From contig NZ_CP150144.1 in the NCBI RefSeq assembly GCF_037963145.1, forward strand, positions 868,001-932,000: a stretch of 64,000 bases of DNA. The letters are read 5' to 3'. Below are positions 34,133-36,452 of the stretch, one piece after another. Each line of letters opens with the position of its first letter. Position 1 is the stretch's first letter. The translations under genes were made by a program, and so were the position numbers. Under the pieces are notes generated by a model. The model was not told the origin of the DNA and made no database searches. It saw nothing but the letters and a program-made list of their open reading frames with translations. Origin of the DNA: Oceanobacillus sp. FSL K6-2867 (GTDB lineage Bacteria > Bacillota > Bacilli > Bacillales > Amphibacillaceae).

Positions 34133-34443
34133 TTATCTCATCCTTTCTTCCACCTAGTTTCATTCTAATTAGGAACGTGACCTCTATCCACAACCCGAAG
34201 TAGTAATTCCTCTACGTCTAAAGACTGATATTCATATGCAATGTGCAGTGAAGTGATTCGCACTATTGTAATTGCTCCATTTAATGGTACAGGTAATACA
34301 ATTTCTTACTTGCTTCTCTATCAGCGACTTGTTTTATCTGATTTACTTTTTATTCTGGATCTCTCATCATTATGAGTAACCCTTGCATGAAACTTACTCT
34401 CTGTTCACGCTCTCATTACCTTTATAAGTAACCCATTGGAACG
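34133..34443. other. Intergenic stretch before the hairpin repeat
   Basis: I see no gene or clear regulatory element. The DNA is AT-rich with short interrupted frames. Confidence 0.35.
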
Positions 34444-34763
34444 AAACTGCGGACTAACATACATGGATGGATTGTGCGTATACCCGCTACGAAAACACAC
34501 TGCGCTTTCTGCGGGTGTTTCCGTAGCTAGAACTGACACGTTACCTATTGTTAACATCGTTTATCAAGAATTTAATAAAACGTTGCTCTAACCAGTCAGG
34601 GTAAGTGAAGGGCGGGGACTCCTGCGGGAAAAGCACGTGTCTGAAGACTCACCGTAAGCGGTTTTCTTTCGGAGAGGCTGATGCCGGCCCGTGGAAAGCA
34701 TCCGCCCGGAGCGATCCCGGACGATCGGACTTACTCATATTTCAGCAGTTAGCTCGCAGTTTA
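34444..34763. repeat. Composite Bacillaceae hairpin repeat, about 320 bp
   Basis: Outer arms AAACTGCGGACTAAC (34444-) and GTTAGCTCGCAGTTTA (34748-34763) enclose two GC-rich elements. The first is CGCTACGAAAACAC / GTGTTTCCGTAGC with a CTGCGCTTTCTGCGGG core. The second, about 34612-34725, has GGCGGGGACTCCTGCGGGAA and ATCCGCCCGGAGCGAT. I recall this second type as multi-copy in Bacillaceae genomes. No coding potential. Confidence 0.6.
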
Positions 34764-34856
34764 TATAAATACTGAATTAACTTTATAAAAAGTGAAACCT
34801 AAACTGCTTTTGAATCGTACTTAATAATAGTACTTTTAGAACGGAGGTGAATACAG

Positions 34857-35225
34857 ATGCTTATTGAGTTATTATCCGAATTGTTTAATGAGTTCTCGCC
34901 AATTTATTTTTATATCGGTTTATTGCTGGCAATTATTCCAATTCGAATTTACAATCAACCAAACACCTATCAAACAGATGTGTATATTCGAAAATCACAT
35001 GCATTGCAATATCAGTTGCTTTCTGTTCCTGAGTTAACCGCAACAATTCTGGAAATACGCAATTGGTTAACCCATAAAACTAAACGGATCGAGATACCGG
35101 ATGATAACGAAGAAGACAGCTCTTCTTTCGATTTTTGTTATAAAAATCAAGGAGGGCTAATATGGAAACAAAATCTGTATTCACCACACTTAAGAAATAT
35201 AGCTTTATCATATTTGGACTTTTAG
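34857..35225 (+). CDS. MifM-like translational-arrest leader of yidC2
   Basis: A 122-residue ORF behind a strong GGAGGTG site. Residues 14-31 form one N-terminal helix (SPIYFYIGLLLAIIPIRI), followed by a soluble stretch and TILEIRNWLTHKTKRIEIPD then an acidic cluster DDNEED at 82-87. B. subtilis MifM (95 aa), encoded upstream of yidC2, has the same plan: an N-terminal helix that monitors YidC-dependent insertion, R-I-x-x-W-type arrest residues near 69-73 and a C-terminal acidic run. Codons 88-101 run through a stem that hides the yidC ribosome site. Unlike MifM, this frame continues past the yidC start. Confidence 0.7.
   Translation: MLIELLSELFNEFSPIYFYIGLLLAIIPIRIYNQPNTYQTDVYIRKSHALQYQLLSVPELTATILEIRNWLTHKTKRIEIPDDNEEDSSSFDFCYKNQGGLIWKQNLYSPHLRNIALSYLDF
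35118..35158 (+). promoter_or_regulatory. Stem-loop sequestering the yidC2 ribosome-binding site
   Basis: AGCTCTTCTT (35118-35127) pairs with AAGGAGGGCT (35149-35158), and GATTTTT (35130-35136) with AAAAATC (35142-35148), leaving a 2-nt bulge and 5-nt loop. The Shine-Dalgarno AAGGAGG is fully paired. A ribosome arrested at the acidic cluster of the leader ORF would open the left arm and expose it. Confidence 0.75.
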
Positions 35226-35977
35226 TAATTGCATTACTTGCAGGCTGCCAAGGAACAGCCGAGCCAATAAATGCCGATTCATCCGGCTGGTTTGATCATT
35301 ATTTCGTCTATACATTTTCTGTATTAATCAAGGGATTAGCCGGTTTTTTCAGTGATAATTATGGACTATCCATTATCCTGTTGACACTTTTTATTCGATT
35401 GGCCTTGATGCCTATCATGCTTAAGCAAATTAAAAATAATGTTGCAATGAAGGAAAAAATGAACGTATTAAAACCAGAAATGGATGCAATACAAGAGAAG
35501 TACAACAACAAGCAGGATGCAGAAACACAGAAGAAAATGCAGTCGGAATTAATGCAGCTTTATGGGAAACATGAGATAAACCCATTGGCTTCACTGGGCG
35601 GATGTTTACCAATGCTCATACAATTCCCGATATTAATTGGATTTTACTATGCAATTCTCCGAACACCTGAAATTTCATCCCATTCATTTCTTTGGTTTAA
35701 TCTTGGACAATCGGATATTATCCTAACTTTGCTGGCTGTAGTCATCTACTTTATCCAGTTCAAAGTGTCCTTAATCGGTATGGATTCAAAAATGAAAAGC
35801 CAGATGACATTTATGGGGCTCCTCTCACCAATCATGATTGGTGTAATTTCATTAAATGCTCCGGCAGTACTGCCACTATACTGGGCAGTAGGTGGAATCT
35901 TTATGATTGTTCAGCAATTGATTGCTAAGAAAATGTACAATACCTATAAAAACAATGAAAAACCTGCAGAAGCATAA
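35162..35977 (+). CDS. yidC: Membrane protein insertase YidC/OxaA, YidC2 (YqjG) type
   Basis: A 271-residue insertase that places proteins into the plasma membrane, with or without Sec. It has a lipoprotein signal (LLVIALLAGC, cysteine near residue 29), then five helices. Key features are the RLALMPIMLKQIKNN segment with the conserved positive residue of the hydrophilic groove (near 78), KYNNKQDAETQKKMQSELMQ coiled hairpin, NPLASLGGCLPMLIQFPILI near 140 and a basic tail. Its translation is probably governed by the upstream arrest leader, as for B. subtilis yidC2 under MifM. Confidence 0.93.
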   Translation: METKSVFTTLKKYSFIIFGLLVIALLAGCQGTAEPINADSSGWFDHYFVYTFSVLIKGLAGFFSDNYGLSIILLTLFIRLALMPIMLKQIKNNVAMKEKMNVLKPEMDAIQEKYNNKQDAETQKKMQSELMQLYGKHEINPLASLGGCLPMLIQFPILIGFYYAILRTPEISSHSFLWFNLGQSDIILTLLAVVIYFIQFKVSLIGMDSKMKSQMTFMGLLSPIMIGVISLNAPAVLPLYWAVGGIFMIVQQLIAKKMYNTYKNNEKPAEA

Positions 35978-35996
35978 TCTGCAGGTTCTTTATTTT
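35961..35996. terminator. Terminator at the yidC2 end
   Basis: AACCTGCAGA and TCTGCAGGTT overlap the yidC stop and are followed by CTTTATTTT; mscL converges from the other side. Confidence 0.8.
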
Positions 35997-36367
35997 GCAT
36001 TTTGTTCTTTTAATAAATCTCTGATTTCAGTAAGCAGCTGTTCTTGTTTATCAACTTCCTCTTCAGCCGCTTTCTCTTCTTTCTTTTTAAATTTAGACAG
36101 AAAACGGATTGTCATAAAGATTGCAAATGCAATAATCAAAAAATCAACAAAGGATTGAATAAAATTGCCATATAATACTTCAGCATCTCCAACCATTATA
36201 CTTAATCCGGTGAAATCAATACCACCTGCTAAAATTCCTACAAGAGGCGTAATAATATTTTCAACAAAGGATGTTACGATTGCACCAAAAGCTGAACCAA
36301 TTACCACTGCAACAGCTAGGTCAAAGATATTCCCTTGAAAAGCAAATTGCTTAAACTCTTTCCACAT
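35990..36367 (-). CDS. mscL: Large-conductance mechanosensitive channel
   Basis: MscL opens under membrane tension to release solutes at hypo-osmotic shock. The 125-residue protein shows MWKEFKQFAFQGNIFDLAVA at the N-terminus, VVIGSAFGAIVTSFVENIIT in the pore helix, a second helix GNFIQSFVDFLIIAFAIF and a C-terminal charged bundle ending LTEIRDLLKEQ, matching the family length. The ATG (36365-36367) follows AAGGAG. The sspP gene lies upstream on the same strand with its own terminator. Confidence 0.95.
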   Translation of the reverse strand: MWKEFKQFAFQGNIFDLAVAVVIGSAFGAIVTSFVENIITPLVGILAGGIDFTGLSIMVGDAEVLYGNFIQSFVDFLIIAFAIFMTIRFLSKFKKKEEKAAEEEVDKQEQLLTEIRDLLKEQNAK

Positions 36368-36452
36368 CAATAATTTCTCCTTTTAAAAAGTATACATTGC
36401 ACTCCATAATAATACGCAGCACAATTATAATATTAGAGGGTAAAAAGCAAAA

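Follow-up and report, generated by a model that had tools for sequence, protein, structure and literature searches.

Organization of the leader–yidC2 locus

The DNA considered here is a 64,000-nt stretch (the window) of contig NZ_CP150144.1 from Oceanobacillus sp. FSL K6-2867, a halophilic relative of Bacillus, in which a MifM-like leader open reading frame (ORF) precedes and overlaps yidC2, the second YidC/Oxa1 insertase gene encoded in this 4.4-Mb genome, and in which the ribosome site of the leader is complementary to an early segment of yidC2 (Table 1). The yidC2 product shares 45% identity with the other YidC of the genome over residues 11–263, and 88% with its counterpart in O. polygoni. 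As expected of a MifM leader, the ORF is small and located immediately 5′ of a secondary yidC; its ribosome site, which reads GGAGGTGAATACAG, is strong, and its stop lies 64 nt past the first base of the yidC2 start codon, that is, about 20 codons further on in another frame. The original prediction, made from the letters of the window, had described both an ORF that lies upstream of yidC2 and later overlaps it and a continuation through the yidC start for 20 codons, and the measured layout agrees on both counts.

Table 1. Features of the leader–yidC2 locus (positions in the window; SD1 and SD2, Shine–Dalgarno regions of the leader and of yidC2)
Feature	Position	Strand	Remarks
Leader Shine–Dalgarno GGAGG (SD1)	34843–34847	+	Invariant or nearly so in alignment A2
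Long-range helix, 5′ arm GGTGAATACAGAT	34846–34858	+	End of SD1, spacer, first bases of leader start codon
MifM-like leader ORF	34857–35225	+	122 codons, 122 aa
Conserved Trp codon, W70	35064–35066	+	
Acidic run DDNEED, residues 82–87	35100–35117	+	Putative arrest site at or just past its end
Anti-SD2 arm AGCTCTTCTT	35118–35127	+	Leader codons 88–91
Inner stem of SD2 hairpin	35130–35148	+	8 bp, 3-nt loop
SD2 arm, yidC2 ribosome site AAGGAGGGCT	35149–35158	+	
yidC2, YidC/Oxa1 insertase	35162–35977	+	271 aa; ATG at 35162
Two-frame stretch	35162–35225	+	Leader C-terminus and yidC2 N-terminus; contains 3′ arm
Long-range helix, 3′ arm ATCTGTATTCACC	35173–35185	+	yidC2 codons 4–8, translated in both frames

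A covarying helix joins the ribosome site of the leader to yidC2 codons 4–8

The 5′ arm GGTGAATACAGAT is the reverse complement of the 3′ arm ATCTGTATTCACC over all 13 nt, with a span of about 300 nt, a long-range complementarity that was absent from the original prediction. By comparison among relatives, the existence of this helix is well supported. The scoring covered 98 of the 99 loci of the genus and family (the two non-pairing loci included, L016 left out for its ATT start codon); their 13 columns held 1054 Watson–Crick, 73 G-U and 130 mismatched cells, besides 17 gaps, whereas 2000 partner shuffles gave on average 923 Watson–Crick (standard deviation 9, maximum 963), 102 G-U and 232 mismatched cells. 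A wider set of 112 loci with leaders of the kind termed type II here (overlap and pairing) comprised 22 genus loci, 74 family loci, 6 loci from genomes named Evansella, Salipaludibacillus or Alteribacter, and 10 of 36 order-level loci, these last having entered the set because pairing was seen. Alignment A2 retained 80 of them, from at least six GTDB families, the 32 dropped being mostly near-duplicates; with no structure supplied, RNAalifold returned a single helix for A2, the one joining the leader site and yidC2, with 10 pairs, 9 of them with double changes. In this alignment, 97.2% of 790 cells pair versus 89.2% after shuffling, double-changed cells number 50 versus 5.9 (standard deviation 2.3), and none of 500 shuffles reached any of the five covariation measures. 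Sliding the partner by 1–3 columns lowers the paired cells to 27–58%, and parsimony, on a tree built from columns outside the arms, counts 17 pair-keeping double changes versus 0, 0, 0, 0, 2 and 1 in the slid controls.

Chance complementarity was rejected. When 25 GGAGG-type ORF starts of the window were matched to the yidC2 start, the leader scored 31 and the next best 16.5. A search for the commonest-arm pattern at the right distance, which uses the commonest letters only and thus misses variant arms, found it in 8 of 249 order genomes, that of the window included, always at known leader loci.

The same letters might be kept by amino-acid constraint, without any RNA helix, if the YidC2 residues SVFT or the leader residues LYS happened to be conserved opposite a common ribosome-site spacer, and the majority sequence is indeed conserved in both frames. 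This explanation is scarcely credible, since the YidC2 residues at the arm vary (SVFT, SIFT, GLLT, SIRT, FIFT, SAFT) and pairing stays, leader residues changing as well, so that the helix-keeping changes cost amino acids in both proteins. In addition, TCTGTATTC is used in 58 of the 65 loci reading SVF, in contrast to about 2% predicted from codon use in 28 full yidC2 genes (TCT 0.18, GTA 0.33, TTC 0.28). The covariation and partner shuffles oppose it too, as do the type I relatives described below, which have neither overlap nor pairing, and the 24 other GGAGG-type starts, none of which exceeds 16.5. As a sole cause, amino-acid constraint was rejected: the double changes refute it, provided that they are not artefacts of the alignment.

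An inverted DNA repeat, serving as an operator or bounding an invertible segment, would likewise present two arms as inverted repeats flanking a segment of about 300 bp. It is nevertheless highly improbable and was rejected on the balance of mispairs, the position of the arms and the constant orientation of the leader. G-U cells outnumber A-C cells 73 to 13 (33 to 13 without the outermost column) in the 98 loci, compared with 102 to 64 in the partner shuffles, an excess expected for a sense RNA; the arms fall at the start region of the leader; and the leader is co-oriented with yidC2 in 23 genus and 76 family loci.

Contiguous pairing, with G-U allowed, has a median of 12 bp (7–21) in the 112 type II loci, and a median of 7 and a maximum of 10 in 22 type I loci. 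A duplex of this kind could act in mRNA turnover, as a nuclease signal (for example, for RNase III) or as 5′-end protection, the masking of SD1 then being incidental; 32 of the 112 loci, with at least 16 contiguous bp, would fit such a role, which is nonetheless improbable, given that the median of 12 bp is short for RNase III and that in type II loci the 5′ arm coincides with the start codon and ribosome site of the leader instead of lying elsewhere.

Masking of the leader ribosome site by the helix is suggested by modelling. In 87 of the 99 loci from genus and family, the long-range helix has an RNAfold probability above 0.5; permuting ten nucleotides of the 5′ arm reduces its occurrence from 28 to 6 of 30 sampled loci. 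The modelled unpaired probability from SD1 to the start codon (means over 20 chosen loci) is 0.39 before the 3′ arm is present, 0.09 in the full mRNA and 0.33 when the arm is covered; a stalled ribosome alone leaves SD1 closed in the model (0.09).

In locus L016 (genome G007), the leader ribosome site and the arm are intact (AGGTGAATACAG), and the start codon is ATT, followed in frame by ATC ATC GAA TTA; ATT is here either a rare start codon or the trace of a lost start.

A predicted local hairpin at the yidC2 ribosome site

Directly after the acidic run of the leader, AGCTCTTCTT pairs with AAGGAGGGCT over 10 bp, in agreement with the original prediction of a stem that begins at codon 88 and masks the yidC2 ribosome site; the inner stem, given there as 7 bp, has 8. 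The stretch 35090–35200 folds at −20.5 kcal/mol (z −2.24, with 8 of 200 shuffles equally good), the RNAfold probability of the SD2 hairpin exceeds 0.5 in 94 of the 99 loci from genus and family, and in 111 of the 112 type II loci the SD2 helix scores higher than shuffled upstream stretches do on average. In 100 of these 112, the anti-SD2 arm begins 0–15 nt past the last acidic codon, so a ribosome stalled there would cover the anti-SD2 arm; accordingly modelled, with a ribosome at codon 89, the unpaired probability of SD2 is 0.32, versus 0.05 in the full mRNA (means, 20 loci).

The leader peptide and its kinship with MifM

The motifs that the original prediction had picked out in the peptide are there, IRxW at 67–70 as IRNW and the acidic DDNEED at 82–87, and the leader also carries KRI at 76–78. 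Conservation had been expected within residues 64–90, and in the type II alignment A5 (31 rows) conservation reaches 90% or more at W70, R77 and D83, I67 and R68 not being among the positions at that level. A hydrophobic segment is recognized by inspection at about residues 15–30, which leaves a spacer of about 57 residues to residue 87; for MifM, the available part of PMC10987492 gives a spacer of about 54 residues between membrane segment and arrest site. The last acidic residue of the densest acidic run is at a median position of 88 in the 112 loci. MifM has the arrest motif RIxxWIxxxxxMNxxxxDEED. According to the available part of PMC4423224, its DEED corresponds to residues 86–89, the P site is occupied by D89 to S92 during stalling, and the residues named include R69, I70, M80 and N81. 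The acidic cluster of the leader falls, by inspection, within residues 70–100, as the acidic-charge rule for Firmicutes MifM homologues asks in the accessible text of PMC10987492.

The leader is likely a distant MifM homologue, a relationship obtained by chained profile comparison through intermediates: type II leaders (A5) match a broad set of non-overlapping type I leaders (A6, 22 rows) over 91 columns, with a probability of 98.7 and an E-value of 2.4e-16, and A6 matches Bacillus MifM (A3, 9 rows) with a probability of 96 and an E-value of 3.9e-9. The MifM-like identity originally proposed is thus upheld through these intermediates and by an acidic run at the arrest site of the family. It fares less well in the direct comparison, and two observations speak against it: A5 versus A3 is weak (probability 33, E-value 4.5e-4), and the MifM residues R69-I70 and M80-N81 have no match as such, the Trp and the acidic run being kept. 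No Pfam or NCBIfam family scored above its cut-off for the leader, a sequence search of the PDB with the leader did not return any MifM chain, and a protein search with it returned the leader itself and three Oceanobacillus entries named hypothetical protein. Since 572 MifM homologues from 592 Firmicutes genomes have already been catalogued, according to the available part of PMC10987492, the leader is to be seen as a further member of this family, and the sensor as such is not new.

Distribution of overlap and pairing

Within the genus, the leader was matched in 23 of 28 genomes, always upstream of and overlapping yidC2. The misses are G008, G009, G011 and G019, which have a single YidC among the matches listed, and G005, which was outside the YidC search. 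The search for YidC2 covered 147 family genomes; outside the genus, more than one YidC match was obtained in at least 79 genomes, and yidC2 loci were taken from 76 of them, leaving out G052 and G134 (no second match near yidC2) and G154 (closest match partial, residues 91–264). All 76 of these other-genus loci have a leader ORF, 60 codons long or longer, and 74 of the leaders overlap yidC2, their stops falling at +28 to +106 nt. The leaders of L100 and L101 (genomes G060 and G033) are 96 aa long, stop 25 nt before yidC2 and show no pairing, which suggests loss or replacement of a type II locus. A search with the leader profile gave no match in 57 genomes (G005 and 56 with a single YidC among the matches listed); this search had no positive control, the same profile finding known leaders in another search.

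The type II layout was found in the family of the window and in GTDB families f82, f76, f61, f2 (genus g49) and f77, as well as in the named Evansella, Salipaludibacillus and Alteribacter, and the leader stop is past the downstream arm in 111 of the 112 loci. In the type I layout, the leader stops 12–55 nt before yidC2 and no pairing is seen at this place; its members are ten loci of the B. subtilis and B. licheniformis groups (L127–L136), 22 of the 36 order-level loci, which belong to other families, and L100 and L101. Nine of the other 14 order-level loci are type II, and L220, L207, L214, L229 and L223 stand separately, no leader having been obtained for L223. With its 64-nt overlap and 13-bp pairing, the locus of the window is a MifM variant rather than a case of the B. 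subtilis-type (type I) architecture. The idea of a divergent class in the original prediction pointed in the right direction, the read-through being family-wide, and missed the covarying long-range helix that accompanies it.

Proposed mechanism and alternatives

Taken together, these data point to a MifM-type YidC-monitoring leader whose architecture is of a second kind, type II, with leader loading limited by a long-range RNA clamp; we consider this reading probable. Arrest, dependence on YidC and the function of the clamp, as we infer them, would be connected in four steps. By homology, the nascent leader would arrest at about codons 87–90 unless YidC inserts its N-terminal helix. The stalled ribosome would then cover the anti-SD2 arm and, according to the model, free the yidC2 ribosome site. 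The leader ribosome site, for its part, pairs with yidC2 codons 4–8 in the helix shown by covariation; with both pairings present, both ribosome sites would be closed in the complete, ribosome-free mRNA. Finally, the clamp may be opened by any ribosome crossing the yidC2 start, whether one that translates yidC2 or a leader ribosome that, once released, continues across the overlap. Leader loading would thereby be tied to transit, idle mRNA would close itself, and a stalled leader ribosome would attract no queue unless yidC2 is being made. The overlap would serve as a device by which leader ribosomes sweep the arm, release letting the next ribosome load, and a stalled leader would stay clamped unless yidC2 is translated. 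Such transit-coupled loading would account for the position of the leader stop past the arm. A more specific version, offered tentatively, is a two-lock arrest sensor in which the clamp meters sensor ribosomes singly, each having to clear the start of the target before another is loaded, with no queue and no collision rescue.

Several observations weigh against the type II clamp reading. The G-U cells are fewer than in the shuffles, 73 to 102, because the pairs are mostly Watson–Crick, and the order-level loci of the type II set were selected by their pairing, as stated above. Parsimony also finds 18 changes, 13 of them single and 5 double, by which a pair is lost, as well as 20 pair-preserving single changes, and 3 of the 17 double changes come from L220, the least certain alignment. 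Nine family loci, of the L080 kind, have a mismatch in the core, and the modelled helix does not exceed a probability of 0.5 in 12 of the 99 loci, two of which (L100, L101) are without matching arms. In L220 (genome G743), the leader ribosome site pairs over 17 bp with yidC2 codons 2–7 even though the leader ends 16 nt short of yidC2, which shows that overlap is no strict requirement, and in L207, L214 and L229 there is overlap without pairing. As regards the local hairpin, it is lacking from the RNAalifold consensus of A2, which is poorly aligned in that part; the opening of SD2 in the stalled-state model is partial, from 0.03 to 0.74 between loci; and RNAfold takes no account of ribosome kinetics.

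The helix might instead be a one-time switch of the pioneer round, the leader starting only before yidC2 codon 8 has been transcribed; without arrest in the first round, the mRNA would be shut for good, and after a stall, translation of yidC2 would keep both sites open. The drop in modelled SD1 access once the arm exists (mean 0.39 to 0.09) favors this alternative, as does the distance of 305–332 nt between the leader and yidC2 starts (loci with the correct leader start), which would provide a time window during transcription. By itself, however, it leaves the leader stop beyond the arm unexplained, and permanent closure would end sensing on that mRNA, for which reasons it appears rather unlikely.

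What is new in the transit-coupled clamp reading is the covarying leader-site clamp together with the conserved overlap, as a variant of the MifM system. In the parts of the literature available, an arrest-peptide switch consists of a single hairpin that a single stalled ribosome opens. At the present locus, a second helix with phylogenetic support would close the leader as well and, judging from where it lies, should open on ribosome transit over the target gene; a single DNA stretch is used there for two reading frames and for one RNA helix. The question of how a strongly initiating arrest leader avoids piling up ribosomes is thereby made testable, and if the two-lock proposal were true, the stalled sensor would build no ribosome queue and trigger no collision rescue. 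For many MifM loci, the overlap and the complementary arms provide a marker for classification.

Comparison with known systems

As described in the available parts of PMC4423224 and PMC6037786, the B. subtilis MifM-yidC2 system shares with the present locus an upstream ORF before a secondary yidC, an N-terminal hydrophobic segment, two YidC proteins, a Trp and an acidic run near residues 70–90, and a hairpin over the yidC2 ribosome site. The leaders of the B. subtilis and B. licheniformis groups (L127–L136, B. subtilis itself not included) have about 93–98 codons, end 29–55 nt before yidC2, have a poorer ribosome site by inspection and show no pairing at this place, unlike the Oceanobacillus leader with its approximately 120 codons, overlap and covarying clamp. 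In the main text of PMC10987492, the words 'overlap' and 'Oceanobacillus' do not occur, and its accessible part makes no mention of long-range pairing. The clostridial CliM, a YidC monitor, has a predicted stem-loop that spans the leader 3′ end and the yidC2 start, and in this resembles the present locus; pairing with the leader ribosome site, in contrast, is not mentioned in the available part of the source (PMC13183943). A literature search, with preprints and most subscription papers outside its scope, found no report of leader-site pairing in MifM or other arrest leaders.

Among known systems, hok/mok comes closest to the clamp: long-range pairing there makes the ribosome site of a leader ORF 5′ of the regulated gene inaccessible. 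The context is that of a toxin–antitoxin system, with 3′-end processing, an antisense RNA and no known arrest peptide. Reportedly, going by the title of a 1994 paper by Thisted et al. cited in PMC8309996, the 3′ end of hok mRNA competes for the mok initiation region. The partner in hok/mok is thus the mRNA 3′ end, whereas here it is formed by early codons of the regulated gene. We know of no leader-site clamp in SecM or VemP. In the available parts of PMC7897499 and PMC10987492, SecM-secA and VemP-secDF2 are arrest leaders that induce the next gene, SecM opening a hairpin over the ribosome site; the present leader, with its putative arrest, similarly precedes a gene that would be induced, and differs from them in its proposed monitoring of YidC instead of Sec and in its unrelated arrest motif.

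Neighboring features

A promoter scan gave 7 promoter-like sites versus 6.0 in shuffles, that is, no excess, and an Rfam search of 34400–36100 returned only matches under the gathering scores of their families. Just 5′ of the leader, a G+C-rich element at 34605–34745 is one of 38 genome matches (72–100% identity, several partial) of an interspersed repeat, for which Rfam gave nothing above threshold. Directly after yidC2, within 35958–35990, a terminator-like hairpin is found on the + strand (35961–35987), and a second one on the − strand at the same place, both located between yidC2 and the convergent ORF 35990–36370.
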